A stretch of 35,528 nt of DNA from positions 1 through 35,528 of IMG/VR virus record IMGVR_UViG_3300034980_000253. One strand, written 5' to 3'. Position 1 is the stretch's first letter. Each line of letters opens with the position of its first letter. This DNA comes from a virus. The position numbers were made by a program, and so were the translations under genes. Below the pieces are notes generated by a model. It saw only the letters and a list, made by a program, of their open reading frames with translations, made no database searches and was not told where the DNA came from. Positions 9,001-35,135 of the stretch are shown piece by piece.

Positions 9001-11159
9001 AAAAGTTTAAAGGGTCTGGCCGAGAAGTCGTTGATCCTATTGAAAGCATCGTGAAAAACACAATGCAGATTGTGCAGCAGGTAGAGTCGAACGCAGCGTT
9101 ACTCGCGCTCGTCCGCCAGTTGAGGGGTTTTAGCTCAAAGGAGATGGAGAGTATCGCGCAGTTCATTGAGCCGGTTCCAGCCAGAATGGAAAAGGTTGTT
9201 TCCAAGAAAAATGTTAAAGACATTCTCAAGATTCTGAGCGATCAAGGTATTGCGTTTAAGGATGGGCAGAAATGGGAGAAGGGTGGCGTTGAGGTTCCCG
9301 ACAGCGTTATTAACGATACCGAAATTTTGATTCAGTCATTTCGCCCAATTACAACGACAACGCCTTACGGGAACGAGATTTCCGTGCTGGAGGATGGAGA
9401 GCGGAAGTATTACAGGGTAAACGACAAGCAACTATTTGATGCGTTAAGCACGGTAACGCTTACTCCAAATCAGGTGCCAGTTATTGCATGGCTAGGGACT
9501 GCCACGCAGATGCTTCGTCAAGCTGCGACGACGACCTTGGAGTTTTTACTTCGGAACCCCATCAGGGACACACTGCAAGCTGCTACCGCAAGCAAGAACA
9601 TCTTTATTCCGGGGTGGACTACGGCGCGTGGGTTGTTTTCAATCCTTGCGGCAACAGATACCGGTCGTGCGCTGAACAAGAAACTCGGACGTGATGCGGA
9701 CACATGGTATGACGAGTTCCAGAATTCACTTGCGGGTGGCTATACGCTGGGATCGCTCAACCGTGATGTCATTATGGAAGAGGTGTATGCGTTGACGCCT
9801 GTGAAGCGTCGAGCCTTCCTAAGCCGGATTGTGCGTGACCCACTCACGGCGCTTCGTCGATTCCAAGAGATGATGGAGAACTCATCGCGTGTTGGTGACT
9901 TCGCGTTGTCGGTCAGGCGGTTGGAGCGCAAGGGACTCTCGCCTGAAGAGTCACGCGCTCAAGCGGCGTATGATGCGGCTGAAGTCACGGTGAACTTCAA
10001 GCGTATGGGTATTTATGGTCGCAACATGAATCAGACGAAGGCGTTCTTCAATGCCAGTATTCAGGGGAAGGCGCGTCTCGCAGAAGTGTTCAAGCGAAAC
10101 CCCGTGAAGTCAACGATGTCGGCGCTGCTTACTATTACGCCTCTCTCGATGGCGTCGTGGTATCTGACTAAGGACGACGAGGAATACGATGAGCTTCTTG
10201 ACTGGCAGAAGAAGGGGTTCTGGTGGTTCCCGCTTGGGAAAGAGAAGGGGCATGAATGGTTCGTAATTCCCAAGCCGTGGGAACTCGCGCATTTCTTTGG
10301 GAACATTCCAGAAGCGGCCCTCAACTATGTGTATAAGGGCGAGGATGGCGAGAGGCTCATTAAGGAAATCTTCCCTGACGAGGATTCCGTGTGGAGCTTA
10401 CTCGGTCAAGGTATTCCCACTTTTATTCTTCCAATGATTGAGGTTGGATTTAACCGATCTCTGTTTCGTCAGGGGCCAATTGTGAGTCCGTTTGACTGGA
10501 ATGTGATCAGTCCAGAGCATCAGTCGAACCGCTATACGTCAGAGACCGCACGGCAACTGGCAAAGTTGATGGACTGGAAGTTTTTCGGCGCGGCACATAT
10601 CGATCATTTACTTCAGGGATACACGGCTGGGCTGGGGGGATACGGGACAGACACAACTGATGCGCTGTTGCGGAAGGAAAAATTTACGATTCCCAAGACA
10701 GATGTAGGGTTTGATAATCCAATAGCGGCACTGATGGCTGGAGAATTAGAGCGCCCCCCAGTGCCAGTAAAAGGGACACCAAAGACCAGACTGTGGGGAT
10801 CACGCGCTCTCTTCCGCCCAAGCGTGGCCGGTGGAGGTGCCCAGTCGTTGCGAGATTTCTACGAAGAAGCCAACGCACTTGCTGGCGTGAAACGGGACAT
10901 GACTATTGAGCTAAAGCGCGGTGATACTGATGCGTGGAGAACCCTGTTTGACGAGCATCGAGACTTACTGGTTCGTGAGGGGCGTATTAGCTCGACGCGA
11001 GAACTACTCTCGTTTTATCGAGGAAGGATCAACCGCCTCTATGAGCAGTTTGATGGAGAGACGGCCCAAGAGCGTGGAGCGAGGGAGCAGGAATACTGGA
11101 ATCGGATGGTAGATACAGCACGTCGACACTTCGGGAAGTCTACGCTGTATCGGGACTAA
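3..11159 (+). CDS. Giant polyvalent (virion/ejection-type) protein, 5' partial
   Basis: The frame is open from the first bases of the window (codon at 3) through TAA at 11157-11159, over 3,700 residues, so the true start lies upstream. A TTG at 126 has no SD and is not a convincing start. The first in-frame residues are very lysine-rich. Visible domains: a zincin-type HEVGH (nt 1554-1568); a region near 3035-3200 with a WYxGANKIA motif and an ALSPQ-like helix motif, followed near 3870 by a TIDTHAV motif, resembling a recurrent phage domain; an EVQSDW motif (6198-6215) with its usual partner APF...W...LKR..RLA.EGGYDS near 6760-6850; a second zincin HEVGHH (7854-7871); and a C-terminal region (about 9500-10400) resembling large-polyvalent-protein C-terminal domains of the LPD38 kind. 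Multi-domain proteins of this type are packaged in virions and are thought to enter the host with the DNA. The role of this one is inferred from architecture; individual domain names are tentative. Confidence 0.9.
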   Translation, partial: KKKATKKKVKKKKKVSDEQQQEIQESKTDATIERGDTGQPKLFEVEGPVEDALDNKQIQSILDLIVQRYKGSELFGREKNPGNIRNELKGYSAEQLSRLINEEAKGLPGANLRKSIREIAKMAPNDPLLSEALVFKPKPPVPQSARLQSWVDGFFNRIQPVVNFAVQSAGSSETARKRRLGESSKSDLPPDKIGFLRMALEMETNPTHQRALTNDLMDLQRKVYEKTYQRDAMLDEGIKGRDRTKWAEEILRLDEEIRSLNDIGSVFVHRPLLAGDSRWDHKIPAWSARLLDPMLTKEQKKLGGAFVLVENGKLKSLKNQSKLFQALYETGSKDPNRRNIKPEERASIFFARVEFFQQWQANQSLITKTGRLVKAVEKTINQWSRGRLNKEALALQRKLHDGVPLFARWTGLRNQSALTLALNNTSSIPDHGVVTAKMVDSFVKELTDETGSFTSDEAQQLREYLLRVFMSIDSNIDFSDLRIQVRERIEKNKTARGVYWPNLGLIQVKPGLVNTVAHEVGHYLMHKWSRELSGDANWETSTKLAVQEENLVYNSDQTPVASEPRVEWFNQFREFITDITERADTRRTQEQIQLQKNKNKQSVLENKKIEAFARFVDWFTEKTQADAAPGSTLGGAVGERTKVKTEFRDNFTEEDFTSFVNLIQSKQGLDRTDHNPFGTEYDRIDTPYNSSWLTKLPDAILAQAARMGAVILDNAESPKLRLKTTERVPKLTDTEFNVAFLELLGQPHRNAWWDENKGAFLDTQQQKTYTELRDKMYGVQSGKYDKSRLTEDEASQYDELERMIAVSQGWTSSSMPSHPARVAYAISQHLPLIREKAEQMLPSVRNDITLSLGTTAPIEKVERPDGSEGLLVSTRVPRGLALVTDLRRRNAATGLWETVDAEERDRIKDTRLDAVDIPLNMVERVVGTGAFRATHPDARKKGATGIIYPPSPLLTMKEIDDYAQGKFNGKTFDQTELDHKITERVIEVGKGNLRYLLKAYDADLSKEAMKWYEGANKIALRLAEIINPGASKENLNRDQAAAILASLSPQAEWNQNIARAFRLVQIYNHFQSNPDAVFSEEMFKWWVKKVPKTEKANYRKTLKDIQERGLSKKRQLEEVQKAKDLLRDNLDQMEHLSRLDGVDATFRETFTGDDVDVTAEYKDSFAPRSWRQMTGRSGVAEKARMIRAYEETQYEDDLGAQNPALKGQVLPKKSRKYVVYQPDGVTGGVLALNEKSGNPASMTWGSWPEIESALSILMDGSASNISEQLGLGHKVRSFFNNINVPSDERSVTIDTHAVAAFYFSPYGSNDPEVVGTFGGPDTVSTGHTGMNPMIAEAYFQLAEELGVSPRALQSVAWEAMRGLIPSTQKQSRMVTPKKARDAAAKAGTAVPRGIKTTEGEIPPEGTVWDDYQQGNLTIEAARAEIHQRSIDEGLAKAEESDGQASYHNGFRDPDWADESFRLSNDQSRVPEGVSTGQPTRLSPEYRSDTGGSALVGRRVTADVGRVLSDDELRLGEEQDRPWVWEPRRDYHTQFIREAQLFINTFRASADASEGVAPPYYSEVAEAIRRGYRQRGVQKQKNPALQTPGVIRGWISGIDQNKGELDFLGLDDWLQNDAPRYNADGTRMSAEAPLTGKQKAFSKVSVEDVLSFIGHKQLEIVEFINQPLDHLQNEGDIGVTGTPFPVAVRQWPVSEMPTEAWRERVRDRGEVADHRIKLFQFPKHTEHSASGGYNHRTLVLVARPPQAEMSMDERSESGAQFLDEVAEHEMYDTDAHRDRLWWLRTQEHVPMRDNENFASLFTRGDRLEITKVLQNFRERGLQQSPANEKFYWGGDGSIDLTQDKDDIAGLTSGKEYDELIVSPTFDSAADARAWLNEQIGAATQVTPLKNVVAHVRVQDRVYPTYSQNQVEALWQKLRDGIYAQGFFSKTVKELQKARAEYDQLHYEDRRGDIPKETMDRLSRRRLGLLSELGSKEAYDTTPPNAAWMPGRYTRHFDPYRPLFQLGDDVSFSLTDAVDRGILTDREVTMLMHESDLRSGRSLSKHSVVLSEKARSYELETRQLWVDEVQSDWGQSETAVLDAIAEGYALKLMYTLEERAHWKRERTKLREQLDFANALLARSYDRDRVSPKQRAEFVAEQELIVRDLKESLKIIDESIKAVGKGYIRNPQGHLVQWDGPGNYDIPDDAKRQIERNLKKRKRNPKIRLAEGLDRSLAYSSEEYDELPSGMGNQFRMTQTGWQQPSNVDIGVYRKAPFPRLNWKLDSLKRVMRLAIEGGYDSVGLTDAATQRRRWDRTGLRLVKAEVVSPKALPKRPITETRGRKQVGIEDFVPSGLLNVRLVVESRSIDSVTSETSAAKDTYLVKVNEFGRIVSLESVEEPSTYLPPDIVGKMFDSVVQSRDSDVSMLEALRKAPKTHADQRTYTPSETVVVEGAAYESVYGERTETSLNKFLKPWNIRMRPVSLGLRVKAGGLEKSGGTVTGTSLQISEAMRQDFTYKGIGVWEKEVLNEAQLNEKFPNLSGEEQIEAAEEAGYDVIRDDPMEGKVPSAPKGQTPPKKPAFGTKEEQLLPISTIIERVAKGLGNLQVSIGRTRGFRGLYKPRLGSIWMKAANDLEVLSHEVGHHLYENLFKVKGKRFAQEAWTSELIELSGARPNLVSENASTTRRVREGAAEFFRIWSHDPRRAKVAAPEFYAEFERRISGDLEQTLRDFQKEYIKHFEANPADRFAAHLNFYTGRAVDLSEPDRFLRFEVNWLNEQAPIKKFVRELVRLQRSGKKRSAIADIFDVNDMPEFILDDAFRLGEMSKGATIKARSFLRIGVRKRDFETEQPIRNEKGNVRTKAFHGGLREAMEPVVSEWKSKGGSLLKLGLGEAGKKRDYFRAFSIYLAARRTKSLIERGADVTPDSTAFGRGGPTLEEAQAFIDQWETPGFKAAAENLYDFQSSLLDYAVDSGALSLEDVNRVRAVSTDYVPFNRVKAASEMILDSRGNKKSLANTQDILKKFKGSGREVVDPIESIVKNTMQIVQQVESNAALLALVRQLRGFSSKEMESIAQFIEPVPARMEKVVSKKNVKDILKILSDQGIAFKDGQKWEKGGVEVPDSVINDTEILIQSFRPITTTTPYGNEISVLEDGERKYYRVNDKQLFDALSTVTLTPNQVPVIAWLGTATQMLRQAATTTLEFLLRNPIRDTLQAATASKNIFIPGWTTARGLFSILAATDTGRALNKKLGRDADTWYDEFQNSLAGGYTLGSLNRDVIMEEVYALTPVKRRAFLSRIVRDPLTALRRFQEMMENSSRVGDFALSVRRLERKGLSPEESRAQAAYDAAEVTVNFKRMGIYGRNMNQTKAFFNASIQGKARLAEVFKRNPVKSTMSALLTITPLSMASWYLTKDDEEYDELLDWQKKGFWWFPLGKEKGHEWFVIPKPWELAHFFGNIPEAALNYVYKGEDGERLIKEIFPDEDSVWSLLGQGIPTFILPMIEVGFNRSLFRQGPIVSPFDWNVISPEHQSNRYTSETARQLAKLMDWKFFGAAHIDHLLQGYTAGLGGYGTDTTDALLRKEKFTIPKTDVGFDNPIAALMAGELERPPVPVKGTPKTRLWGSRALFRPSVAGGGAQSLRDFYEEANALAGVKRDMTIELKRGDTDAWRTLFDEHRDLLVREGRISSTRELLSFYRGRINRLYEQFDGETAQERGAREQEYWNRMVDTARRHFGKSTLYRD

Positions 11160-27387: not shown

Positions 27388-27421
27388 TGCCCTCTATGCC
27401 GAATGCTCGACATAGAGGGCA
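27388..27421 (-). terminator. 11-bp inverted repeat between leftward genes
   Basis: TGCCCTCTATG (27388-27398) and CATAGAGGGCA (27411-27421) pair perfectly around a 12-nt loop, ten bases after the stop of the gene ending at 27431. No U-run follows in either direction, so it is either a 3'-end stabiliser or an operator abutting the promoter at 27379-27387. Confidence 0.5.
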
Positions 27422-27430
27422 CGATAATAA

Positions 27431-27868
27431 CTACACTTTGGCAGGGGTCTCGGTCGACTGGAGAAGCAGTGACTGGACGTGCGGATCGGGGGGCCGAAGG
27501 TTGCAGAGGTGCCTGACTCTGACGTCGTAGCCTCGGTCAGCCATCCATGCATCGACCTGTGCTGGGTTATCCTTGCTGCCGGTCATGTCTCGATACGTGG
27601 GCGGCTCAGTAAAGCTGTCCCTGTCCTCGTCATCAAACGCAGAGACAAGTACCTGAATCTCCCGGTCGGCAATCCGCTCCGCCTCGGCAAAACTCAGGGC
27701 GTAGTGGTGTACGCGGTTGGTCGGCCCATGCTGGCCTTCGTCTCTGTCCCAGTCGTCCAGGTCGTTATTCTCGCTAGTCACGGTCACCGCAAAGAGCGGT
27801 ACCGTTTCAGGTTGCGTGACCGGTTCGTCTGCAAACTGAATCCTGAGTTCGTTGTGTTCAAATGCCAT
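27431..27868 (-). CDS. Hypothetical acidic protein
   Basis: 145 residues; strong SD GAGGAGG before ATG 27868. Rich in Asp and Glu, with a mixed alpha/beta middle (NRVHHYALSFAEAERIADREI, VLVSAFDDEDRDSF) and a C-terminal VRHLCNLRPPDPHV. Last gene of the ribozyme-separated series, following hammerhead 27942-27997 and a long structured leader. It lacks the covarying SD hairpin. Unknown function. Confidence 0.65.
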   Translation of the reverse strand: MAFEHNELRIQFADEPVTQPETVPLFAVTVTSENNDLDDWDRDEGQHGPTNRVHHYALSFAEAERIADREIQVLVSAFDDEDRDSFTEPPTYRDMTGSKDNPAQVDAWMADRGYDVRVRHLCNLRPPDPHVQSLLLQSTETPAKV

Positions 27869-27892
27869 ACCCTACCTCCTCTTTCTCAAGTG

Positions 27893-27930
27893 CTGCACTA
27901 AATGAAAATATTTGTGACCGTTTAGTGCAG
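27893..27930 (-). repeat. 10-bp inverted repeat in leader of the 27868 gene
   Basis: CTGCACTAAA (27893-27902) and TTTAGTGCAG (27921-27930) are perfect inverted repeats around an AT-rich 18-nt centre, between the hammerhead and the gene. It could fold in the RNA as the new 5' structure after ribozyme cleavage, or be a protein operator. Confidence 0.55.
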
Positions 27931-27941
27931 TAGTGTTACTG

Positions 27942-27997
27942 ACCCTCGTCAGTGCTACCTCAGAGTAGCAGACGGCCCCCGTGGGGCCGTTTCGGGT
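27942..27997 (-). ncRNA. Type II hammerhead ribozyme (HHR-6)
   Basis: Minus-strand order: stem II ACCC (27997-27994), GAAA (27993-27990), stem III CGGCCCC/GGGGCCG with a 3-nt loop, then UC, cleavage between 27971 and 27970, stem I UGCUAC/GUAGCA with loop UCUGAG, core CUGACGA (27952-27946), and stem II GGGU closing on ACCC. All core nucleotides of the CUGANGA/GAAA hammerhead are present. It starts 15 nt after the stop codon at 28013. Confidence 0.93.
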
Positions 27998-28012
27998 TGA
28001 CGCCTATGGCTA

Positions 28013-28597
28013 CTATGTCTTCGTCAGGCTGGCATCGATCTCGTTCTCCAGTGCCCGTGTCTGGCCGTCAGTCAGGCCGTCGATGATGACGTGATCCTTG
28101 CGCCATTTTCTTGTCTTTTTTAAACGCTCTTGGGTCTCCTTCTCAACTTGGCGCATCGCCGTGGTTCGGGCTTCGTCGCTATGCCGTGGATCGGTATCAG
28201 GTAACACCTCCAGTGCTGTTAAGGGAGTGCGAACACCGTGACCTCCGGCCCCGAATGGGCACTCGTCACTGCCGCCCCTGTCGTATGAGACGTACGCGTA
28301 TTTCTTGGTCACCTTTTTAACGGTGCCCACTTCTCCGTTCCCCCATGACGCCCCCGTCAACACCACTCGTAACCCCACTCGGAAAGTGTCTCGCACGGCA
28401 GCAGTCAGTTCATCGTGACGTTTTCTGACTACTGCGCCCAGCTTGTTGACGTGCGTTGCCGCACCCTCCAGTTGCGCTAAGGTTGTTATTCCAGCTACCC
28501 ACGTTTCAAATTCCACACTCGCATAGTCGTCCTGCCACCAACTCGAATATCCGAAGTCCGTTTCAATTAAAACACTCGATGTCATTCGCTCTTTCAT
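28013..28597 (-). CDS. Hypothetical protein with KOW/SH3-like segment
   Basis: 194 residues from ATG 28597; the in-frame extension to 28681 runs through a twister ribozyme and lacks an SD. The centre FRVGLRVVLTG...NGEVGTVKKV...YAYVSYDRGG has the strand pattern of a small KOW/SH3-like barrel, often nucleic-acid or protein binding. The C-terminus is basic and helical. The SD sits in a covarying hairpin (28603-28617). Unknown function. Confidence 0.7.
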   Translation of the reverse strand: MKERMTSSVLIETDFGYSSWWQDDYASVEFETWVAGITTLAQLEGAATHVNKLGAVVRKRHDELTAAVRDTFRVGLRVVLTGASWGNGEVGTVKKVTKKYAYVSYDRGGSDECPFGAGGHGVRTPLTALEVLPDTDPRHSDEARTTAMRQVEKETQERLKKTRKWRKDHVIIDGLTDGQTRALENEIDASLTKT

Positions 28598-28602
28598 GGT
28601 CT

Positions 28603-28617
28603 GTCCCTCCTTGAGAC
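28603..28617 (-). promoter_or_regulatory. SD hairpin for gene at 28597
   Basis: Minus strand GUCUC-AAGGA-GGGAC: a 5-bp stem (one G-U) with the SD purines in the loop and 3' arm. One of nine in the operon with compensated stems. Confidence 0.75.
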
Positions 28618-28625
28618 AAAATGGT

Positions 28626-28686
28626 CGACGGGGTTGTGACCGCCGTTCCGGTTTACTCCGGGCAACCTGCGCCCGGATCACTCACC
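28626..28686 (-). ncRNA. Circularly permuted twister ribozyme (TW-4)
   Basis: Minus-strand order: P2 GGU (28686-28684), GA, P1 UCCGGGC/GCCCGGA, G, UAA, P2 ACC (28652-28650), then a 6-bp P4 capped by U-CACAACC. Pseudoknot T1: GUGA (28681-28678) with UCAC (28639-28636). T2: GG (28649-28648) with CC (28633-28632). Cleavage expected between U28655 and A28654. It starts five nt after the stop at 28692. Confidence 0.88.
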
Positions 28687-28691
28687 ATGCC

Positions 28692-29258
28692 CTACGCTGT
28701 TTGGTGCCGGTCGACGTCGACGTTGATATTCCCTCGGTCGTCGACGTGCAGGTAGGCTGCAACATCCAGTCTCGGGCCAGACACGCGAAACTGATCTGAC
28801 TGGAACTTTTGCAGCACGAGCTTGGCCTGTCCCAGCGTCAGGATCGGTTTGACCAGACCGCCGTCATTCGGATATAGCTGCGTCGACGTGATGGTCTCGA
28901 CGTACCAGCCTGACCTCCGATAGACCAGGACTACTTCAGTTCCGTCGCGTGAGTATTTGTAGCCACTCGACACTGGCTCCCCGGACAGGAATTTGACGCG
29001 CATGCCTACGGAGTGAAGCTTACTGAGACCCAGTCCTTGTCGACGTTCCTCGGCGGTTTCCATGCAGTCGAGAATCTGCCGAGGATATGTGAACGTATGC
29101 TCCGTCGAGCGTCCGTTCACGGCATCGAGAATCGACTGTATTTTGTCCGACACAGACTCGACCAGACACGTATATGGCGGATGCATGCCGCCGCCGACAA
29201 TAGGTCCGCCCTTGCGTGAGACTGTTCGTAGCCTAAACGGTTTCCATGCTTTGATCAT
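28692..29258 (-). CDS. Hypothetical protein
   Basis: 188 residues, ATG 29258 with AAGGAGG presented in an SD hairpin. Mixed alpha/beta; GMRVKFLSGEPVSSGYKYSR then EVVLVYRRSGWYVETI is an SH3-like beta segment similar in style to the neighbour at 28013-28597. C-terminal VAAYLHVDDRGNINVDVD is beta-rich. No family recognised. Confidence 0.65.
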   Translation of the reverse strand: MIKAWKPFRLRTVSRKGGPIVGGGMHPPYTCLVESVSDKIQSILDAVNGRSTEHTFTYPRQILDCMETAEERRQGLGLSKLHSVGMRVKFLSGEPVSSGYKYSRDGTEVVLVYRRSGWYVETITSTQLYPNDGGLVKPILTLGQAKLVLQKFQSDQFRVSGPRLDVAAYLHVDDRGNINVDVDRHQTA

Positions 29259-29261
29259 CGA

Positions 29262-29276
29262 GTTCCTCCTTGGAAC
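29262..29276 (-). promoter_or_regulatory. SD hairpin for gene at 29258
   Basis: Minus strand GUUCC-AAGGA-GGAAC, a perfect 5-bp stem. Two pairs differ from the GUCUC/GGGAC version in neighbours while pairing is kept. Confidence 0.78.
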
Positions 29277-29292
29277 TGTTAGTTAGTGGCTT

Positions 29293-29348
29293 GCCTCATC
29301 AGCGGCAGGGAAGCCATCCCTGCCGGACGCCCCGAAGGGCGTTTCGGC
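29293..29348 (-). ncRNA. Type II hammerhead ribozyme (HHR-5)
   Basis: Minus strand: stem II GCC (29348-29346), GAAA (29345-29342), stem III CGCCC-UUCG-GGGCG, UC, cleavage between 29326 and 29325, stem I of nine perfect pairs (CGGCAGGGA/UCCCUGCCG, loop UGGCU), CUGAUGA (29302-29296), stem II GGC. Complete core; 13 nt after the stop at 29362. Confidence 0.95.
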
Positions 29349-29361
29349 CAGTCGTTGTGGG

Positions 29362-29958
29362 CTAGCCCTCTTTGAGAAGCTCTGCGACTTCTGGCGGCAG
29401 AGCGTCGAACTCGACAGACTCACCGTTATCTGGCGGAGACGGAAGTTCCTCCTCGGTATGGAGATTCGGTGCGCGAAACTCGGTACCGAGCGAGAGGTGT
29501 TCTTCCATCACGGGTACTGACATTGTTGCATCCGTGGGGCGTAGAGAATTCTGGCTAAAGATAGGCACGGTGACTTCCCGTGTGCGGAAGACATATCTTA
29601 TTTTCTCTAGGCGAACAGTCGTCCGGCACTCATCACGAAGCAGCACTTCTGCGATACGAGGAGACTGTTCGTATCCCTTCGCAAACGCGCCGTAGAGATC
29701 CTCTGGGTCGTCCAAGTACCCCTCCTCCTGTTGGACTTGCACCTCCTTGAGAATCCACTCGTCTTTTATTGCCAGTGCTACCTCAAGTGAATCCGCGACG
29801 ACCGATTTTTTTTGGGAAGTTTGACTGCCAAACTCTTGATATATCGTCACTTTCCAAGCGTCCGTGCATCCGGTCTTGATGTCTTTGCGGATGGTGCTAC
29901 AGGCTTCGTCTGCGTAGTTATCCGGTAATACAAGTTCGCCGTGTGTATTCTCTTTCAT
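29362..29958 (-). CDS. Hypothetical protein
   Basis: 198 residues, ATG 29958. Alpha/beta with a long helix (EVALAIKDEWILKEVQVQQE) and an acidic Pro-rich C-terminus ending in a helix (LPPEVAELLKEG). An A8 run in codons for QKKS (around 29806-29813) is a possible slippage site. SD in hairpin 29962-29976. Function unknown. Confidence 0.65.
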   Translation of the reverse strand: MKENTHGELVLPDNYADEACSTIRKDIKTGCTDAWKVTIYQEFGSQTSQKKSVVADSLEVALAIKDEWILKEVQVQQEEGYLDDPEDLYGAFAKGYEQSPRIAEVLLRDECRTTVRLEKIRYVFRTREVTVPIFSQNSLRPTDATMSVPVMEEHLSLGTEFRAPNLHTEEELPSPPDNGESVEFDALPPEVAELLKEG

Positions 29959-29961
29959 ATC

Positions 29962-29976
29962 GTCCCTCCTTGAGAC
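29962..29976 (-). promoter_or_regulatory. SD hairpin for gene at 29958
   Basis: Minus strand GUCUC-AAGGA-GGGAC, followed by CGAU-AUG. Same stem as at 28603 and close to that at 30451. Confidence 0.75.
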
Positions 29977-29988
29977 TTGTTTATGGCT

Positions 29989-30043
29989 CCCTCATCAGCA
30001 TTAAGACGCCACGCCTAATGGACGCCCCGAAGGGCGTTTCGGG
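29989..30043 (-). ncRNA. Type II hammerhead ribozyme (HHR-4)
   Basis: Minus strand: stem II CCC (30043-30041), GAAA (30040-30037), stem III CGCCC-UUCG-GGGCG, UC, cleavage between 30021 and 30020, stem I CAUUAGG/CUUAAUG, CUGAUGA (29998-29992), stem II GGG. Core complete, five nt after the stop at 30049. Stem III is identical to HHR-3 and HHR-5 while stem I differs wholly. Confidence 0.92.
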
Positions 30044-30048
30044 CTTCA

Positions 30049-30447
30049 CTATTGCGACTCGTCAGCATGAACCTGCCAATAAAAAGCAGTTAGTGCCAGT
30101 TCAGCTTTCACCACTCGGAGATACTCTCTCGACGGTGCCATGATTCCACCCAGTGACGCCAGCACCGTCCCGTCGTTATCTCTCAGGGAAACAAACAGTG
30201 TCTCCCACTCATGTGTCGAACCTTCGTGATACTGACACTGCGTATTCTCGCAGTAGCAGTAGGCGCGTTCGTCCTCCTCGACTTTGTAGTTGTCCGCGAG
30301 TCCAACCTCTGAGACCCACGTCTCAGCCTTAGCTAGCTCCAGTGCCCCAAGCGCTTTGGAGCCGACACAATAGCCAGCCTCGCGCATGAAAAACCGCCAC
30401 GATTCTCGGAGCGTTTTCGTACCGCTGGGTAAATCTAAAACAATCAT
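30049..30447 (-). CDS. Hypothetical cysteine-containing protein
   Basis: 132 residues, ATG 30447. The middle contains YCYCENTQCQYHEGSTHEW, three Cys and two His that could bind a metal. N-terminal FMREAGYCVGSKALGALELA is helical. SD in hairpin 30451-30465; upstream element is a twister. Function unknown. Confidence 0.65.
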   Translation of the reverse strand: MIVLDLPSGTKTLRESWRFFMREAGYCVGSKALGALELAKAETWVSEVGLADNYKVEEDERAYCYCENTQCQYHEGSTHEWETLFVSLRDNDGTVLASLGGIMAPSREYLRVVKAELALTAFYWQVHADESQ

Positions 30448-30450
30448 ATC

Positions 30451-30465
30451 GTCCCTCCCTGAGAC
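30451..30465 (-). promoter_or_regulatory. SD hairpin for gene at 30447
   Basis: Minus strand GUCUC-AGGGA-GGGAC; loop AGGGA instead of AAGGA, stem as at 29962. It follows a twister here but a hammerhead at 29962, so the SD module is independent of ribozyme class. Confidence 0.75.
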
Positions 30466-30472
30466 TTTACCT

Positions 30473-30530
30473 GACCGGGATTTGGACCGGTCACTCGGGT
30501 TAACCGGGGCAACAGCCCCGGCCCATCACC
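30473..30530 (-). ncRNA. Circularly permuted twister ribozyme (TW-3)
   Basis: Minus strand: P2 GGU (30530-30528), GA, P1 GCCGGGGC/GCCCCGGU, UAA, CCC, P4 GACCGG/CCGGUC with loop UCCAAAUC. T1: UGG (30525-30523) with CCA (30485-30483). T2: GA (30496-30495) with UC (30480-30479). One C-U mismatch at the first P2 position. Cleavage expected between U30502 and A30501. Ten nt after the stop at 30541. Confidence 0.85.
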
Positions 30531-30540
30531 ACTGTGCTAC

Positions 30541-30834
30541 CTATTGACGTTCGCCATCCCCTGAACATTCATGCACCACTGCTTCAATCCAGTCATGGAA
30601 AGCTGAAAAGCGAATTGCAACTGCGTATTTACCATTCGCCTTCAGGAATGCATACGTGTCTATCACAACCCCATCCTCGTCGGTGCCAGACATCCACAAT
30701 TCGCTCTCCGAGCGAGCCATAAATGCTTTTCGATCCCGAGAGAGTTTGAACGTATAAACCAAAGCGCCTTCTCTCGTTACCCACTCGACTCCAGACTCGC
30801 GAAACAATTGAAACCAGTTAATCTCGTCAGGCAT
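30541..30834 (-). CDS. Hypothetical protein
   Basis: 97 residues, ATG 30834 immediately after the TAA of the upstream gene, AGGAGG before it. Beta-rich (GALVYTFKLSRDRKAFMARS, then GVVIDTYAFLKANGKYAVAI) with a C-terminal helix. No ribozyme separates it from the upstream gene: the pair is translated from one processed RNA. Function unknown. Confidence 0.6.
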   Translation of the reverse strand: MPDEINWFQLFRESGVEWVTREGALVYTFKLSRDRKAFMARSESELWMSGTDEDGVVIDTYAFLKANGKYAVAIRFSAFHDWIEAVVHECSGDGERQ

Positions 30835-31056
30835 TTACTTGTCCTCCTGAGCGAGTGCGAGACGTGTCGAGCGGAGCTTCTGACGCCTCGCTCGACGACT
30901 GGCCTTCCGCCTCGCGTGTCGTCGGTCCCGGTCGACACGCTTGCGTCCTCTGCCTGACAGTGCGCCAGGCTCATCAGTCGTCCCTGTCGAGGGCACCTCT
31001 GGAGCCGGGACGTCCGGCCTGACCGTCTGTATTAGGTTGAAAAATATTCCTAGCAT
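30835..31056 (-). CDS. Small Arg-rich basic protein
   Basis: 73 residues, ATG 31056 with GGAGGT. A hydrophobic start (MLGIFFNLIQTV) and Pro/Thr linker precede a strongly basic C-terminal half (GRGRKRVDRDRRHARRKA, SRRARRQKLRSTR), typical of nucleic-acid binding. It is one of two post-ribozyme genes without the covarying SD hairpin. Role unknown; it could bind RNA. Confidence 0.6.
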   Translation of the reverse strand: MLGIFFNLIQTVRPDVPAPEVPSTGTTDEPGALSGRGRKRVDRDRRHARRKASRRARRQKLRSTRLALAQEDK

Positions 31057-31079
31057 ATTGACCTCCAGTTAAAGTAGTG

Positions 31080-31143
31080 GGTTACCTCATCAGTGTCGGG
31101 ATACCCAGTCCCGGCAGACGCCCCGAAGGGCGTTTCGGCTACC
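31080..31143 (-). ncRNA. Type II hammerhead ribozyme overlapping a stop codon (HHR-3)
   Basis: Minus strand: stem II GGUAGCC (31143-31137) whose UAG is the stop of the upstream gene, GAAA (31136-31133), stem III CGCCC-UUCG-GGGCG, UC, cleavage between 31117 and 31116, stem I UGCCGGGA/UCCCGACA (one C-A mismatch), CUGAUGA (31093-31087), stem II GGUAACC (six of seven pairs). A terminating ribosome would cover stem II. Confidence 0.93.
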
Positions 31144-31768
31144 AGCGTTTCGGACAGGCGTTCCGCCCCTTGGGCGTGATGCTCTTGTTCCGCCGGAGGT
31201 GCTTGGACGCCATCAGTGACGCCACGGCAGCGTCCCAGCGTTCTTGCGTGATACCCATCGTACGGTTCGCTTCGACGAACCGAAGGTTGCTCACGCCTCC
31301 GTAAGACGCCTTGAGAGACCTCGTATGCTCTAGTACGACGATCTGGTCGTCGGACAGGGTCTCAGGCTCTGGAAGGAGCCGTGTCGCGTTCTGAGAGCCT
31401 ATCTTGAGCGTCAGCCCCATATCGTGCCCTTGACAGATCGAGTGCCGCACTACGCCTGTTCCGTCAGGGAGCCTTACGGCGTCAAGTCCTCTGACCGGGA
31501 CGTCCCATGCGGACTGCGACGGGACGCGAGGCGAGACGTCCGTTGTCGCGCCGTCAATCTTTCCGTCAAGCCTCACGAAGTGGAACGTGTCGCGTGAGCC
31601 GCCATCCCAGCTTGACCTCAGATCGAGCGTATCGTCAGCGTCGACGACCTGTATTTTGAAGCTGCGCCCACGGTACGCCGGGAACGCTTTCCGACACAGG
31701 TCGACAACGCCCTGAGACGCTGCGCCCTTGTCGGCTGGGTCAATGTGAATCGGTTCGTTATATGCCAT
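31139..31768 (-). CDS. Conserved phage-type hypothetical protein
   Basis: 209 residues from ATG 31768; a 5' extension runs through the ribozyme HHR-2 and is rejected. The patterns LRSSWDGGSRDTFHFVRL, VRHSICQGHDMGLTLKI and ASYGGVSNLRFVEANRTMGI...W...A.L...LRRN-SITPKGRNA recall a protein type seen in many phages and mobile elements; the last part is winged-helix-like. Function unknown. SD in hairpin 31776-31790. Confidence 0.72.
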   Translation of the reverse strand: MAYNEPIHIDPADKGAASQGVVDLCRKAFPAYRGRSFKIQVVDADDTLDLRSSWDGGSRDTFHFVRLDGKIDGATTDVSPRVPSQSAWDVPVRGLDAVRLPDGTGVVRHSICQGHDMGLTLKIGSQNATRLLPEPETLSDDQIVVLEHTRSLKASYGGVSNLRFVEANRTMGITQERWDAAVASLMASKHLRRNKSITPKGRNACPKRW

Positions 31769-31775
31769 CGTTCGT

Positions 31776-31790
31776 GCCCCTCCTTGAGGC
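31776..31790 (-). promoter_or_regulatory. SD hairpin for gene at 31768
   Basis: Minus strand GCCUC-AAGGA-GGGGC. Relative to GUCUC/GGGAC, a U-A pair is replaced by C-G on both arms. Confidence 0.77.
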
Positions 31791-31792
31791 GT

Positions 31793-31847
31793 GTCCTCAT
31801 CAGTGCTGCCCACTAGCAGCAGACAGTCCCGTAGGACTGTTTCGGAC
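31793..31847 (-). ncRNA. Type II hammerhead ribozyme (HHR-2)
   Basis: Minus strand: stem II GUCC (31847-31844), GAAA (31843-31840), stem III CAGUCC-UACG-GGACUG, UC, cleavage between 31822 and 31821, stem I UGCUGC/GCAGCA with loop UAGUGG, CUGAUGA (31803-31797), stem II GGAC. All stems perfect, core complete; 12 nt after the stop at 31860. Confidence 0.95.
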
Positions 31848-31859
31848 TGGTGTAACTTC

Positions 31860-32276
31860 TTAATCACGGGCAAGACTGGCGTCCACCCGAGTATTGATAT
31901 GACCAAGTCGCTGCAAGCGCATTGTCGTCAAGGCGTCAGCATCATCGGAGTAACGCTCTATGACTTCCTCAGACTTGATCAAAACCTCGTCTGAGCCTGT
32001 GTACGTTAACGTGTCCAGCACTGGGCGGTCAGGCAATTCATAGCGTAAAGACTCTAAATGCGTGACGTCTTTATTTACAGCCAAACAAACGATGCCGTCA
32101 GGCTGCAACACTTCATAAATATCGCTCTTCTCTCGCAGCCACATTTGCGCTGCTACAACTGCCTCGTTCGCATTGTGGGCAATGACATAGATGGTTCGAT
32201 AAGGCTTTGTGGAAACATTATCGGTGTCCAAATCCATCTCGATTGCTTTTGTGTCTATTGCATACAGTCTGTTCAT
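31860..32276 (-). CDS. Hypothetical protein
   Basis: 138 residues from ATG 32276 (the frame extends through a twister to 32357 and is cut back to the SD-supported start). Alpha/beta, with TIYVIAHNANEAVVAAQMWL and SDEVLIKSEEVIERYSDDA. No recognised family. SD in hairpin 32283-32297. Confidence 0.65.
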   Translation of the reverse strand: MNRLYAIDTKAIEMDLDTDNVSTKPYRTIYVIAHNANEAVVAAQMWLREKSDIYEVLQPDGIVCLAVNKDVTHLESLRYELPDRPVLDTLTYTGSDEVLIKSEEVIERYSDDADALTTMRLQRLGHINTRVDASLARD

Positions 32277-32282
32277 ATCAAT

Positions 32283-32297
32283 GCCCCTCCCTGAGGC
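32283..32297 (-). promoter_or_regulatory. SD hairpin for gene at 32276
   Basis: Minus strand GCCUC-AGGGA-GGGGC; shares the C-G version of the stem with 31776 though it follows a twister, not a hammerhead. Confidence 0.76.
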
Positions 32298-32299
32298 GC

Positions 32300-32358
32300 G
32301 GACAGACTTCGGACTGTCCCTGTGGTTTACTCCGGGCAAGCTGCCCGGAGCCGTCACC
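32300..32358 (-). ncRNA. Circularly permuted twister ribozyme (TW-2)
   Basis: Minus strand: P2 GGU (32358-32356), GA, P1 CUCCGGGCA/UGCCCGGAG, UAA, P2 ACC (32326-32324), P4 GGACAG/CUGUCC with loop UCCGAAGU. T1: CGG (32353-32351) with CCG (32312-32310). T2: AC (32323-32322) with GU (32307-32306). Cleavage expected between U32329 and A32328. Two nt after the stop at 32361. Confidence 0.9.
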
Positions 32359-32360
32359 AG

Positions 32361-32807
32361 CTAGCACACTTCGGTTTTGACAAGGTCGAAAATTGCCTTC
32401 ACGGTCTCCGTGTCAAAGTCACTGTGCTTGAGCAAGTCGACCTCGATACTGCCCAGCGATTCTCTCAGGCATTGCTTGCGGAGTGCCTCTGGACGAAATG
32501 AGGTTTGCGTATTGTAGATATGTAGATGGTCTCCACGGCGCAATGCACTCCGTATCCCAAGGGATTTGCCGCGAACCCAACGCTCCCCCACTACGCGCAC
32601 CCTGAGAAACTCCGGCCTTTTGTGGAACGCCCGTGTGACCGCTTCGCAGTCTTCGTCAGACGTGACTGGGCACGCCACGAGAGACCTGCCCTCGCAAATT
32701 TCGCCTGATAGGAACCTGTCCGTGGCTACGACATAGCCAGTGGTCGTCGAGACCTCTTCAGGCGTCCTGTCGTCCGTTACAACTGCTACTGGTAATACTT
32801 GGTTCAT
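32361..32807 (-). CDS. Hypothetical protein
   Basis: 148 residues, ATG 32807. Predicted alpha/beta with ATDRFLSGEICEGRSLVACP, then EFLRVRVVGERWVRGKS and a C-terminal helical region (SDFDTETVKAIFDLVKTE). It follows HHR-1, whose stem II shares bases with its SD hairpin. Function unknown. Confidence 0.65.
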   Translation of the reverse strand: MNQVLPVAVVTDDRTPEEVSTTTGYVVATDRFLSGEICEGRSLVACPVTSDEDCEAVTRAFHKRPEFLRVRVVGERWVRGKSLGIRSALRRGDHLHIYNTQTSFRPEALRKQCLRESLGSIEVDLLKHSDFDTETVKAIFDLVKTEVC

Positions 32808-32810
32808 GTT

Positions 32811-32823
32811 GTCCTCCCTAGAC
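32811..32823 (-). promoter_or_regulatory. SD hairpin for gene at 32807, overlapping hammerhead stem II
   Basis: Minus strand GUCU-AGGGA-GGAC. GUCU (32823-32820) is also the 5' arm of HHR-1 stem II, so the two structures exclude each other. Confidence 0.7.
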
Positions 32824-32876
32824 CTCGTCAGTACCGCCTCGTAGCGGCAGACGTCCCTCTCGGGACGTTTCGGTCT
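32820..32876 (-). ncRNA. Type II hammerhead ribozyme (HHR-1)
   Basis: Minus strand: stem II AGACC (32876-32872), GAAA (32871-32868), stem III CGUCCC-GAGA-GGGACG, UC, cleavage between 32850 and 32849, stem I UGCCGC/GCGGUA with loop UACGAG, core CUGACGA (32831-32825), stem II GGUCU (five pairs). Core complete; ten nt after the stop at 32887. Confidence 0.95.
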
Positions 32877-32886
32877 CAGACTGGAT

Positions 32887-33189
32887 TTAGCGCAAGGTTC
32901 CGTTCCACTCTGCTAAGGCTTCTCTTGCTGCACCTTCAGCCGTCGTCGATTCACCCGTAGCCATCACGAATTGCCGCTCACTCCCAGCCATCGTGCGGTA
33001 GTACCGACCGCCGCGAATGGACCCGACAAATGTGTGTGTCGTCGGGTCACACACTACAGCTATCAAGGTAGCGTTGGAGTGTTTGTCGCGCAGTGTGAAT
33101 TCCTGCACGGCATGACCACGCCGCTCCAATTCATCAATCACTGCGTCAGCGAGTTCTACCGGTGCCCGTTCAAACTTTTTTCCTGTCAT
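32887..33189 (-). CDS. Hypothetical protein
   Basis: 100 residues, ATG 33189, SD AGGAGGA. A helical start (ELADAVIDELERRGHAVQEF) and then a compact beta sheet (SNATLIAVVCDPTTHTFVGS) with C-terminal helix (TAEGAAREALAEW). Nine bases after the upstream stop with no ribozyme, so it shares an mRNA with the membrane protein gene. Unknown function. Confidence 0.62.
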   Translation of the reverse strand: MTGKKFERAPVELADAVIDELERRGHAVQEFTLRDKHSNATLIAVVCDPTTHTFVGSIRGGRYYRTMAGSERQFVMATGESTTAEGAAREALAEWNGTLR

Positions 33190-33198
33190 GTTTTCCTC

Positions 33199-33381
33199 CT
33201 ATTTGTGGTTATCGAAACAGAGAACGAGTGGTGCCACGGTCAGCAGTAGGCAGCCGGTCAGGTAATACGCTTTCCCGGTCTCAAATGCGCCGTCAGACAG
33301 TAGCGCAATTCCGTGGTTGAAGCTGACCGTCCCAGCGGCTATCAGCGTAAGCATGACGAGTGCTAAGTGAATTCCCTTCAT
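33199..33381 (-). CDS. Small two-helix membrane protein
   Basis: 60 residues from ATG 33381; the frame continues through a twister upstream but the SD hairpin fixes this start. Two hydrophobic segments: IHLALVMLTLIAAGTVSF and YYLTGCLLLTVAPLVLCF, separated by a short loop. Probably inserted in the host inner membrane. Function unknown. Confidence 0.62.
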   Translation of the reverse strand: MKGIHLALVMLTLIAAGTVSFNHGIALLSDGAFETGKAYYLTGCLLLTVAPLVLCFDNHK

Positions 33382-33384
33382 ATC

Positions 33385-33397
33385 GTCCTCCTTGGAC
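33385..33397 (-). promoter_or_regulatory. SD hairpin for gene at 33381
   Basis: Minus strand GUCC-AAGGA-GGAC, a perfect 4-bp stem, followed by GAU-AUG. Confidence 0.72.
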
Positions 33398-33398
33398 A

Positions 33399-33457
33399 CC
33401 CGGACTTGGAACCGGGACTGTGGTTTACTACCGCTGAACTCAGCGGCAGTCCTCACC
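33399..33457 (-). ncRNA. Circularly permuted twister ribozyme (TW-1)
   Basis: Minus strand: P2 GGU (33457-33455), GA, P1 CUGCCGCUGA/UCAGCGGUAG, UAA, P2 ACC (33424-33422), P4 CCCGG/CCGGG with loop UUCCAAGU. T1: GGA (33452-33450) with UCC (33410-33408). T2: AC (33421-33420) with GU (33405-33404). Cleavage expected between U33427 and A33426. Five nt after the stop at 33463. Confidence 0.9.
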
Positions 33458-33462
33458 ATGTG

Positions 33463-33675
33463 CTACTCGTCGTCAGGCCACGTCAGACGGCTCTCGTCGA
33501 CGTTCGTGACGCCCTCGCCGTTTACCGGCTTTACACGCCATCGGTCAATGCCGAAGCTGGGCACGTAGTCGATGACCGTGACCGGGATATTGAAGTCGTC
33601 ACTTGAACTCACTCTGATCGAGAGCATTGCCTCGCCGAGTTTCTTGGACGCTTCTATCATCGTAAGGCGTGCCAT
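33463..33675 (-). CDS. Small hypothetical protein
   Basis: 70 residues, ATG 33675 immediately after the TAG of the upstream gene, GAGGG nearby. Helical N-terminus (EASKKLGEAMLSIRV) and a beta C-terminus (DRWRVKPVNGEGVTNVD). No ribozyme separates it from the first gene. Function unknown. Confidence 0.6.
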   Translation of the reverse strand: MARLTMIEASKKLGEAMLSIRVSSSDDFNIPVTVIDYVPSFGIDRWRVKPVNGEGVTNVDESRLTWPDDE

Positions 33676-34065
33676 CTAGTTGCCCTCCGGCACGAACACG
33701 ATGCACATGGGCTTGGAGCCTTTGTGGGACTCGTAGGTGAATGCACCGAGATACTGAAACTGACAATTACGCTCACGCTTCGTCTTGCGGTAGAAGATAT
33801 GCACCGGCTTTTCGCCGTCGATAATCTCTCGGCCCTTCTTCCCTTCAGGCGCGGTCGAGGACTGACTACTCCAGACAAAGTTCCCACTGCGCTTCGGTCC
33901 CTGCTGACATTCATCACTGTAGGCACCGTCACCGGTCACAAAGACACAAACGTCAGCCTTTAAGCTGACTTGACCTTGGTTCCAGTTGCCCTCATTAAAA
34001 ACTTCCCCAAAAAGCTCCGGGATGAGTTTCCGTTTGAACCAATTACCAATTCTTAAATTATTCAT
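33676..34065 (-). CDS. First gene of the ribozyme operon, hypothetical
   Basis: 129 residues, ATG 34065. Mixed beta-rich sequence (VSLKADVCVFVTGDGAYSDE, then KPVHIFYRKTKRERNCQF). Its SD lies in hairpin 34070-34082, about 25 bases after the predicted transcription start, so the SD hairpin is present even where no ribozyme precedes it. Function unknown. Confidence 0.62.
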   Translation of the reverse strand: MNNLRIGNWFKRKLIPELFGEVFNEGNWNQGQVSLKADVCVFVTGDGAYSDECQQGPKRSGNFVWSSQSSTAPEGKKGREIIDGEKPVHIFYRKTKRERNCQFQYLGAFTYESHKGSKPMCIVFVPEGN

Positions 34066-34069
34066 TCTT

Positions 34070-34082
34070 GCCCTCCTTAGGC
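34070..34082 (-). promoter_or_regulatory. SD hairpin for the first gene (34065)
   Basis: Minus strand GCCU-AAGGA-GGGC (one U-G pair). Promoter-proximal member of the nine SD hairpins. Confidence 0.68.
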
Positions 34083-34097
34083 TGATTAACTGTCGCT

Positions 34098-34125
34098 ATT
34101 ATGCATATTCCCATTGTGGCGTCAA
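34098..34125 (-). promoter_or_regulatory. Promoter of the leftward ribozyme operon
   Basis: Minus strand TTGACG (34125-34120, 5/6) and CATAAT (34103-34098, 5/6) separated by 16 bp. It is the only convincing promoter upstream of the array. The leader before the first ATG would be about 25 nt. Confidence 0.62.
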
Positions 34126-34950: not shown

Positions 34951-34980
34951 TTGCGAAACGCGACTGTAAGCGACTACAAT
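34951..34980 (+). promoter_or_regulatory. Possible rightward promoter
   Basis: TTGCGA (34951-34956, 4/6), 18-bp spacer, TACAAT (34975-34980, 5/6), followed by an A-rich start region. It would drive the basic protein and downstream genes. Confidence 0.4.
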
Positions 34981-35062
34981 AAAAACCCTGTGACGACGGA
35001 GAGAGACGTCCTTGAAGTTCCTTTTTTTTCGCGGAATTTCGTATCCCTAAAAAGACTTTCAG

Positions 35063-35091
35063 GGAACTTCCTAGAATTTCCGGGAAGTTCC
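35063..35091 (+). repeat. 9-bp inverted repeat
   Basis: GGAACTTCC (35063-35071) and GGAAGTTCC (35083-35091) are perfect inverted repeats with an 11-nt centre. The right arm is inside the repeated 20-bp element. Confidence 0.6.
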
Positions 35092-35103
35092 TGCCTAAGT
35101 GAA
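35084..35103 (+). repeat. 20-bp repeat, copy 2
   Basis: GAAGTTCCTGCCTAAGTGAA, 19 of 20 identical to 34213-34232; here its left end is one arm of an inverted repeat and its right end runs into the tandem repeat. Confidence 0.65.
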
Positions 35104-35135
35104 GGGAAGTGAAGGGAAGTGAAGGGAAGTGAAGG
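35101..35135 (+). repeat. Tandem 10-bp repeat GAAGGGAAGT
   Basis: Three exact copies (35101-35130) plus a partial fourth, immediately upstream of the small basic protein gene. Could be an iteron-like protein-binding array, for example for the terminase small subunit. Confidence 0.8.

Follow-up and report, generated by a model that had tools for sequence, protein, structure and literature searches.

The operon and its ribozymes

The window, that is, the whole stretch of DNA analyzed here, is a complete IMG/VR virus record (IMGVR_UViG_3300034980_000253) of 35,528 bases, classed as linear and hence possibly a fragment. Its minus strand carries a leftward operon of fourteen genes, A to N (27431-34065). 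The gaps between these genes hold ten self-cleaving ribozymes, six type II hammerheads and four type P5 twisters, all on the minus strand, which is the coding strand of the operon. The window was searched by cmscan against all Rfam families, and the operon region was also searched alone (8.5 kb). The gathering scores are 37 bits for Hammerhead_II (RF02276) and 37.6 bits for Twister-P5 (RF02684). Eight ribozymes lie above gathering in the whole-window search, while the region-only search adds a ninth at the threshold and a tenth below it. All four twisters and five of the six hammerheads thus reach the score of their family. By cmscan, no ribozyme family attained its gathering score on the plus strand or at any other place in the window.

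Read from the promoter end, the order is twister, hammerhead, twister, hammerhead, hammerhead, twister, hammerhead, hammerhead, twister, hammerhead. The B–C gap holds the first twister (33400-33457; 49.2 bits, with covarying T1 and T2; predicted cut after 33427), and the D–E gap holds the weakest hammerhead (32817-32875; 31.5 bits, E 0.0025, with an intact core; predicted cut after 32850). The twister of the E–F gap (32302-32358; 47.3 bits; predicted cut after 32329) is followed by the hammerheads of the F–G gap (31787-31847; 37.0 bits, exactly at gathering; predicted cut after 31822) and the G–H gap (31076-31140; 46.2 bits; predicted cut after 31117), the latter overlapping the stop codon of gene G. 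Beyond the twister of the I–J gap (30475-30530; 42.9 bits; predicted cut after 30502) lie the hammerheads of the J–K gap (29981-30044; 58.8 bits; predicted cut after 30021) and the K–L gap (29285-29349; 42.1 bits; predicted cut after 29326). The series closes with the twister of the L–M gap (28628-28686; 49.3 bits; predicted cut after 28655) and the hammerhead of the M–N gap (27936-27997; 38.3 bits; predicted cut after 27971). An earlier note on this DNA had named ten ribozymes of these two classes on the coding strand and in this order, and had proposed the Hammerhead_II and twister covariance models as one check. The search confirms the ten at these places, on this strand and in this order, nine at gathering score and the tenth with its core intact. 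Chance matches are ruled out by the scores, the single strand, the placement in gaps and the covariation described below.

The gap table of the operon is simple. All gaps of 79-144 nt contain a single ribozyme (10/10), and the three without one are A–B (0 nt), C–D (9 nt) and H–I (0 nt), which bears out the earlier statement that ribozymes are missing only where genes touch or nearly touch. The occupied gaps consist of the ribozyme and the Shine-Dalgarno region with little besides, the leader being longer in M–N. The distance from stop codon to ribozyme runs from -2 to +15 nt. In nine cases the stop is 2-15 nt upstream, and the TAG of gene G alone overlaps its ribozyme; the range of 0-15 nt given before was nearly exact and missed just this overlap.

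None of genes A to N matched a PHROG or Pfam family above cut-off among the families searched. Gene M (28013-28597, minus strand) has a weak, sub-threshold match (E 0.013) to a phage ProQ C-terminal-like domain; if this match is true, an RNA-binding protein is encoded within the ribozyme operon. A candidate sigma-70-like promoter, TTGACG-16-CATAAT, precedes gene A (34098-34125, minus strand; 10/12 consensus positions). A scan for this promoter type gave 3 sites against 4.2 expected by chance, and the candidate is a consensus match only. The operon appears to end at a perfect 11-bp inverted repeat, TGCCCTCTATG...CATAGAGGGCA, which was read directly from the sequence (27388-27421, minus strand) and lies about 9 nt past the stop of gene N. 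Another inverted repeat, GCACTAAA...TTTAGTGC (27880-27935, minus strand), lies in the long M–N leader and may be an operator or a second hairpin before gene N.

Structure and covariation of the ribozymes

The hammerhead core (CGAAA, GUC and CUGANGAG) is intact in all six copies of the window. The features that define type II (CUGANGA, GAAA, a UH site between stems III and I, and an open stem II) are invariant among them, and stem III measures 6-8 bp. Even the low-scoring D–E copy retains CCGAAAC, the GUC cleavage site and CUGACGAG, with 7 bp in each of stems III and I. A pseudoknot between loop I and the tail, typical of type II, is possible in four of the six. It comprises 4-5 bp, and its sequences differ from copy to copy: UGGC/GCCA in J–K, UGGGU/ACCCA in G–H, UGGCU/AGCCA in K–L and CUGA/UCAG in M–N. 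Shuffling gave p-values of 0.03-0.88 for the single cases, the pseudoknot being common and not obligatory in type II. In M–N the same CUGA/UCAG bases can alternatively pair with the core in the minimum free energy (MFE) fold.

The four twisters were compared over P1, P2, P4, T1 and T2. Standard pairs fill 97% of the cells, as against 22-54% in slid-partner controls, and 12 of the 17 pairs have changed on both sides. The pseudoknots T1 and T2 are 100% paired and covary: the first position of T1 reads G-C, G-C, C-G and U-A across the four copies, and T2 reads GG/CC, AC/GU, AC/GU and GA/UC. One pair of P2 and one of P1 are broken. UAA, which includes the UA cleavage site, follows P1 in all four. 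The same signature is found beyond the window, in the arrays of other viruses described below. In 35 twisters from eight arrays, 95.8% of the cells are paired and 19 of 20 pairs have changed on both sides; in 50 array hammerheads the stems are 99.2% paired, with 11 of 13 pairs changed on both sides. Ribozymes with these structures stand on one strand of the operon, one to a gap.

Hairpins at the Shine-Dalgarno sequences

Most leaders of the operon have a structure of their own. In nine of the fourteen genes (A, C, E, F, G, J, K, L and M; 28597-34090, minus strand) the Shine-Dalgarno sequence sits in a small hairpin with the loop AAGGA or AGGGA. The stems covary (GUCC/GGAC, GUCUC/GGGAC, GCCUC/GGGGC, AGUUCC/GGAACU, UGUCUC/GGGACA and others). 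The hairpin is present in eight of the ten genes preceded by a ribozyme, and the short-gap genes B, D and I have none. Proteins of the CsrA/RsmA type bind ANGGA in a loop over the Shine-Dalgarno sequence. The hairpins are possibly a common site of translational control of this kind, the motif being a weak test since AGGAGG itself supplies GGA. The record holds no CsrA gene, and a phage-encoded CsrA was rejected on this ground. Such hairpins are not general in the other arrays examined. In the D–E gap (32807-32875, minus strand) hammerhead stem II shares bases, through its 3′ strand GGUC, with the 5′ arm (GUCU) of the hairpin of gene E. The ribozyme fold and this hairpin would hence be mutually exclusive until cleavage takes the partner strand away.

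Recurrence in other viral loci

Consensus patterns for hammerheads and twisters each matched more than 100 viral contigs, and all frequencies given here are lower bounds; by no means all of the twister-pattern matches are true twisters. Loci were selected by these patterns and not by the position of the ribozyme relative to genes. Ribozymes were then called on the full records with the Rfam models and two models built in this analysis. At least 41 loci, the window included, hold two or more ribozymes, at least 186 in all, in arrays of 2-13. An array peculiar to a single virus is rejected by the presence of such arrays in at least 40 other loci. The earlier note had described these ribozymes as occurring singly or in small numbers, which understates the case, as other viral records hold arrays of 10-13. 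The largest among the loci listed are those of L251 (13 hammerheads), L247 (11), L118 (10 hammerheads) and L248 (10 twisters). In L118 (3917-6748, minus strand) the ten hammerheads lie within 2.8 kb in nearly strict alternation with small unknown genes, an arrangement denser than that of the window. Among cultured strains, Marinobacterium litorale DSM 23545 and Desulfoluna limicola were found to carry pairs of hammerheads.

The following figures refer to the 41 loci listed. All ribozymes of a locus lie on a single strand (41/41). We asked for a stop within -25 to +15 of the 5′ end of the ribozyme that ends an upstream frame of 40 codons or more. Such a stop is found for 89.8% of the ribozymes, compared with 17.8% of random same-strand positions and 27.4% of the opposite strand. 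A Shine-Dalgarno sequence and start lie downstream in 87.6% (36.7% random, 11.8% opposite strand), and both conditions hold jointly in 80%, against 8.5%. The stop offsets are sharply peaked across many separate loci. Offsets of -2 and -1 (TAGNCGAAA and similar) account for 51 of 117 hammerheads, and the stop often lies inside the ribozyme itself, as uAGNCGAAA in hammerheads or as the UGA of GGUGA in twisters (offset -5; 13/57). Only one pair of the loci shares substantial DNA, so a single recent array is not the source of the stop-codon rule.

In L106 (2687-4563) and L108 (7554-8540), hammerheads stand at the ends of ArdC-type anti-restriction genes, which recalls the triple array that flanks ardA in Agrobacterium. 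The idea that the arrays are specifically anti-restriction operons was rejected: genes of this type occur in 5 of 41 array records and 2 of 37 comparison records, which is no clear difference.

Two classes in the same position

Arrays of one class are the rule, in 38 of the 41 loci listed. Both classes are held by three: the window, the most mixed with six and four; L185, with the layout ORF-hammerhead-ORF-twister-ORF; and, more loosely, L116. L185 is a clear mixed array unrelated to the window. The earlier claim of two classes in the same slot is therefore supported in the window and in L185, and more weakly in L116. With the models, no cross-class match was found in about 0.95 Mb of other-class loci, and only L185 and L116 were found in a further 1.29 Mb, which also shows a low false-positive rate.

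Some arrays have grown by local copying (L247, L249, L257 and L258). Identity within L247 averages 73%, compared with 48% between loci, and is 90% within L258. In the window, hammerheads are 55% and twisters 58% alike among themselves, compared with 48% and 54% to the copies of other viruses. Recent internal duplication as the source of the ten is not supported: the divergence among them almost equals that between them and the copies in other viruses. A DUF932 gene stands at the downstream end of the hammerhead arrays of L247 (1597-2547), L072 (2794-3777) and L259 (6928-7962), and of the twister array of L218 (2759-3682); its association with both classes supports their interchangeability more than it does a function. 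The co-occurrence of two folds in one position fits the idea that cleavage itself is wanted, whichever fold performs it.

A model for processing of the operon transcript

We propose the following model. The operon would be transcribed leftward from about 34.1 kb. As the 3′ end of a gene emerges, the type II hammerhead or type P5 twister behind its stop codon would fold and cut in cis, and the polycistron would be matured, with no protein involved, to eleven mRNAs that each hold one or two genes. The predicted products are AB, CD, E, F, G, HI, J, K, L, M and N. Adjacent predicted cuts are 481-705 nt apart, with 3′ tails of 22-42 nt beyond the stop and 5′ leaders of 42-102 nt; the anatomy and the eleven products as first put forward, to be read as sequence-based predictions, were right. 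The product upstream of a cut would have at its end a GC-rich hairpin (stem III or P1) and a 2′,3′-cyclic phosphate. The product downstream of the cut would start with a 5′-OH, at the stem I hairpin where the ribozyme is a hammerhead, and its leader would carry the next ribosome-binding site. The benefit may be that each message has ends of its own, resistant to 3′ exonucleases and to RNases that sense a 5′-monophosphate. Translation and decay of neighboring genes could also be uncoupled. The catalytic class would be irrelevant provided that the slot is cut.

Several lines of evidence support this model. Nine of the ten ribozymes reach the Rfam gathering score and the tenth has an intact core. 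All ten gaps of at least 79 nt are filled and the three short ones are empty. The stems of both classes and the twister pseudoknots covary, in the window and across arrays, and four of the six hammerheads can form the pseudoknot of loop I with the tail. The same architecture recurs in at least 41 viral loci, nearly all without shared DNA. Finally, according to Perreault et al. (2011; PMC3088659), a triple phage array was cleaved both in vitro and in E. coli. Cotranscriptional self-cleavage into eleven mRNAs with hairpin 3′ ends and 5′-OH ends, with cutting in vivo and its benefit being what we infer, is in our judgment the probable role of the array.

Some observations weigh on the other side. 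The D–E hammerhead remains below gathering (31.5 vs 37 bits) even in the 8.5-kb search that gave its E value of 0.0025. The stabilizing pseudoknot has just 3 bp in F–G and 2 bp in D–E. The full ribozyme fold is missing from several MFE structures computed in 180-nt context, notably those of M–N, G–H and J–K; MFE folding ignores pseudoknots. Perreault et al. also report that 4 of 18 consensus-conforming hammerheads were inactive in vitro (PMC3088659), so not all ten need be active. Lastly, megablast, tblastn and peptide patterns found no related virus with the same operon, and a search for relatives by a shared leader pattern gave no match; conservation at these exact sites cannot thus be shown. 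Of the pattern that the earlier note proposed to look for in related phages, the architecture alone was found, in at least 40 other viral loci.

Alternative explanations

The peaked stop offsets admit another account, in which cutting is gated by translation. The terminating ribosome would cover the 5′ strand of the ribozyme, so that only poorly translated or untranslated RNA, or RNA before its first ribosome, is cleaved; the array would then be a quality control or a message-decay switch and not a device for constitutive processing. Among the loci listed, the hammerhead TAGNCGAAA stop overlaps at -2 in 27 cases from 8 loci and at -1 in 24 cases from 12, and the twister GGTGA stop recurs at -5 in 13 cases from 8 loci. 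In the window, however, the stop overlaps in a single case, and the other nine are set 2-15 nt upstream. Short spacers are favored anyway by compact phage genomes, and the twister UGA is part of a conserved core motif, at which any frame reaching it must stop. We regard gating as unlikely. Cleavage could instead serve down-regulation, with cut products degraded fast and expression limited or shut off, giving a short burst from an early operon. Self-cleavage is often destabilizing in engineered constructs, and, like early regions, the operon codes for small unknown proteins. But the predicted products keep each Shine-Dalgarno sequence with its gene and have hairpin ends, and the cuts fall between genes and never within them, which suits processing better than destruction; down-regulation appears rather improbable.

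The remaining two accounts have less in their favor. Ribozymes copied along with genes as recombination modules could spread selfishly and persist with little function for the virus, as the predominance of single-class arrays and the near-identical copies in L247 and L258 would suggest. The window copies, however, are hardly more alike mutually than they are to those of other viruses, and yet their pairing and core are kept; this implies long purifying selection and makes a cassette origin quite improbable. Circular mRNAs are a further thought, as fragments with a 5′-OH and a 2′,3′-cyclic phosphate are substrates of RtcB and could be closed by a host ligase. Both classes are established to yield these ends, and circularization of twister-flanked RNA by RtcB is an engineered method. 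No RtcB gene was found in the window record or in the 20 other array records searched, which disposes of a phage-encoded enzyme in these 21, and Perreault et al. sought circular products and found none (PMC3088659). We hold circularization to be very improbable.

Processing into separate messages accordingly remains our preferred account. It may be an instance of a general phage operon design, indifferent to ribozyme class, in which every stop codon has a cis-cutting ribozyme docked on it, often with the stop inside the ribozyme. One promoter would then yield several independent mRNAs, cutting would compete with the termination of translation, and any fold would suffice. The two alternating folds of the window would be the clearest sign of such a design, which we advance as a tentative idea, somewhat doubtful as it stands.

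Other features of the record

The window also encodes a terminase small subunit and a DnaB-like helicase. An open frame of 3677 aa (126-11159, plus strand) shows about 25% identity to DarB-like antirestriction/virion proteins of marine podoviruses, its relatives including those of Vibrio phage VvAW1 and Pelagibacter phage HTVC034P. Near the right end and the terminase gene, short direct repeats (CTTCCCTTCA) and repeated GGAACTTCC-like palindromes occupy 34980-35110, possibly an origin or a packaging signal.

Relation to known systems

Taken singly, the ribozymes of the window are ordinary members of Hammerhead_II (RF02276) and Twister-P5 (RF02684) by score, core and fold, except for the weak score at 32817-32875. 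Nor is their clustering without precedent, although the earlier note knew of no described operon of this kind. The text of Perreault et al. (2011; PMC3088659) describes clustered hammerheads that flank single genes or short blocks in prophages, proposes mRNA processing as their role, and includes the Agrobacterium triple array flanking ardA. Several coding-strand hammerheads around genes or short blocks of phage DNA are thus common to both cases. That text speaks of a triple array and other tandem arrangements, whereas the window has ten ribozymes of two unrelated classes in every available gap of a fourteen-gene operon. Hammerheads and twisters are also enriched near each other and near genes of Mu-like phages (Roth 2014 and Weinberg 2015, as cited in PMC10085705). 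There too both classes stand by the same genes and seem interchangeable. That association is statistical and extends across genomes; in the window both classes alternate in the same slot of one operon. Full occupancy of an operon, 10-13 ribozymes per virus, alternating classes and docking on stop codons were not found in the literature searched, the primary twister papers (Roth 2014 and Weinberg 2015) excepted. A 2017 review listed the role of bacterial and phage self-cleaving ribozymes, prokaryotic hammerheads included, as an open question (PMC6155905).

The ten filled gaps and the at least 40 further loci of the same geometry make this question directly testable. A single transcript has ten sites within it, both chemistries are present in comparable slots, and the ribozyme-free gaps can serve as controls. 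If processing is confirmed, the operon would represent a protein-free system of mRNA maturation and a natural blueprint for insulated multi-gene expression.

The nearest protein-based counterpart is found in the RNase III and RNase E sites between phage genes, as in the T7 early region, where a polycistron is cut into hairpin-ended products. Intergenic cuts with such products are what the two systems share. The RNase sites depend on protein and yield 5′-phosphate and 3′-OH ends, whereas the window ribozymes are predicted to cut by RNA catalysis and to leave 5′-OH and cyclic-phosphate ends. The idea of clustered phage hammerheads cutting transcripts into single-gene or short-operon mRNAs dates from 2011, and the co-enrichment of hammerheads with twisters is known as well. 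What the present analysis adds is the density of the ribozymes, the union of two classes in one operon and the findings of the survey.

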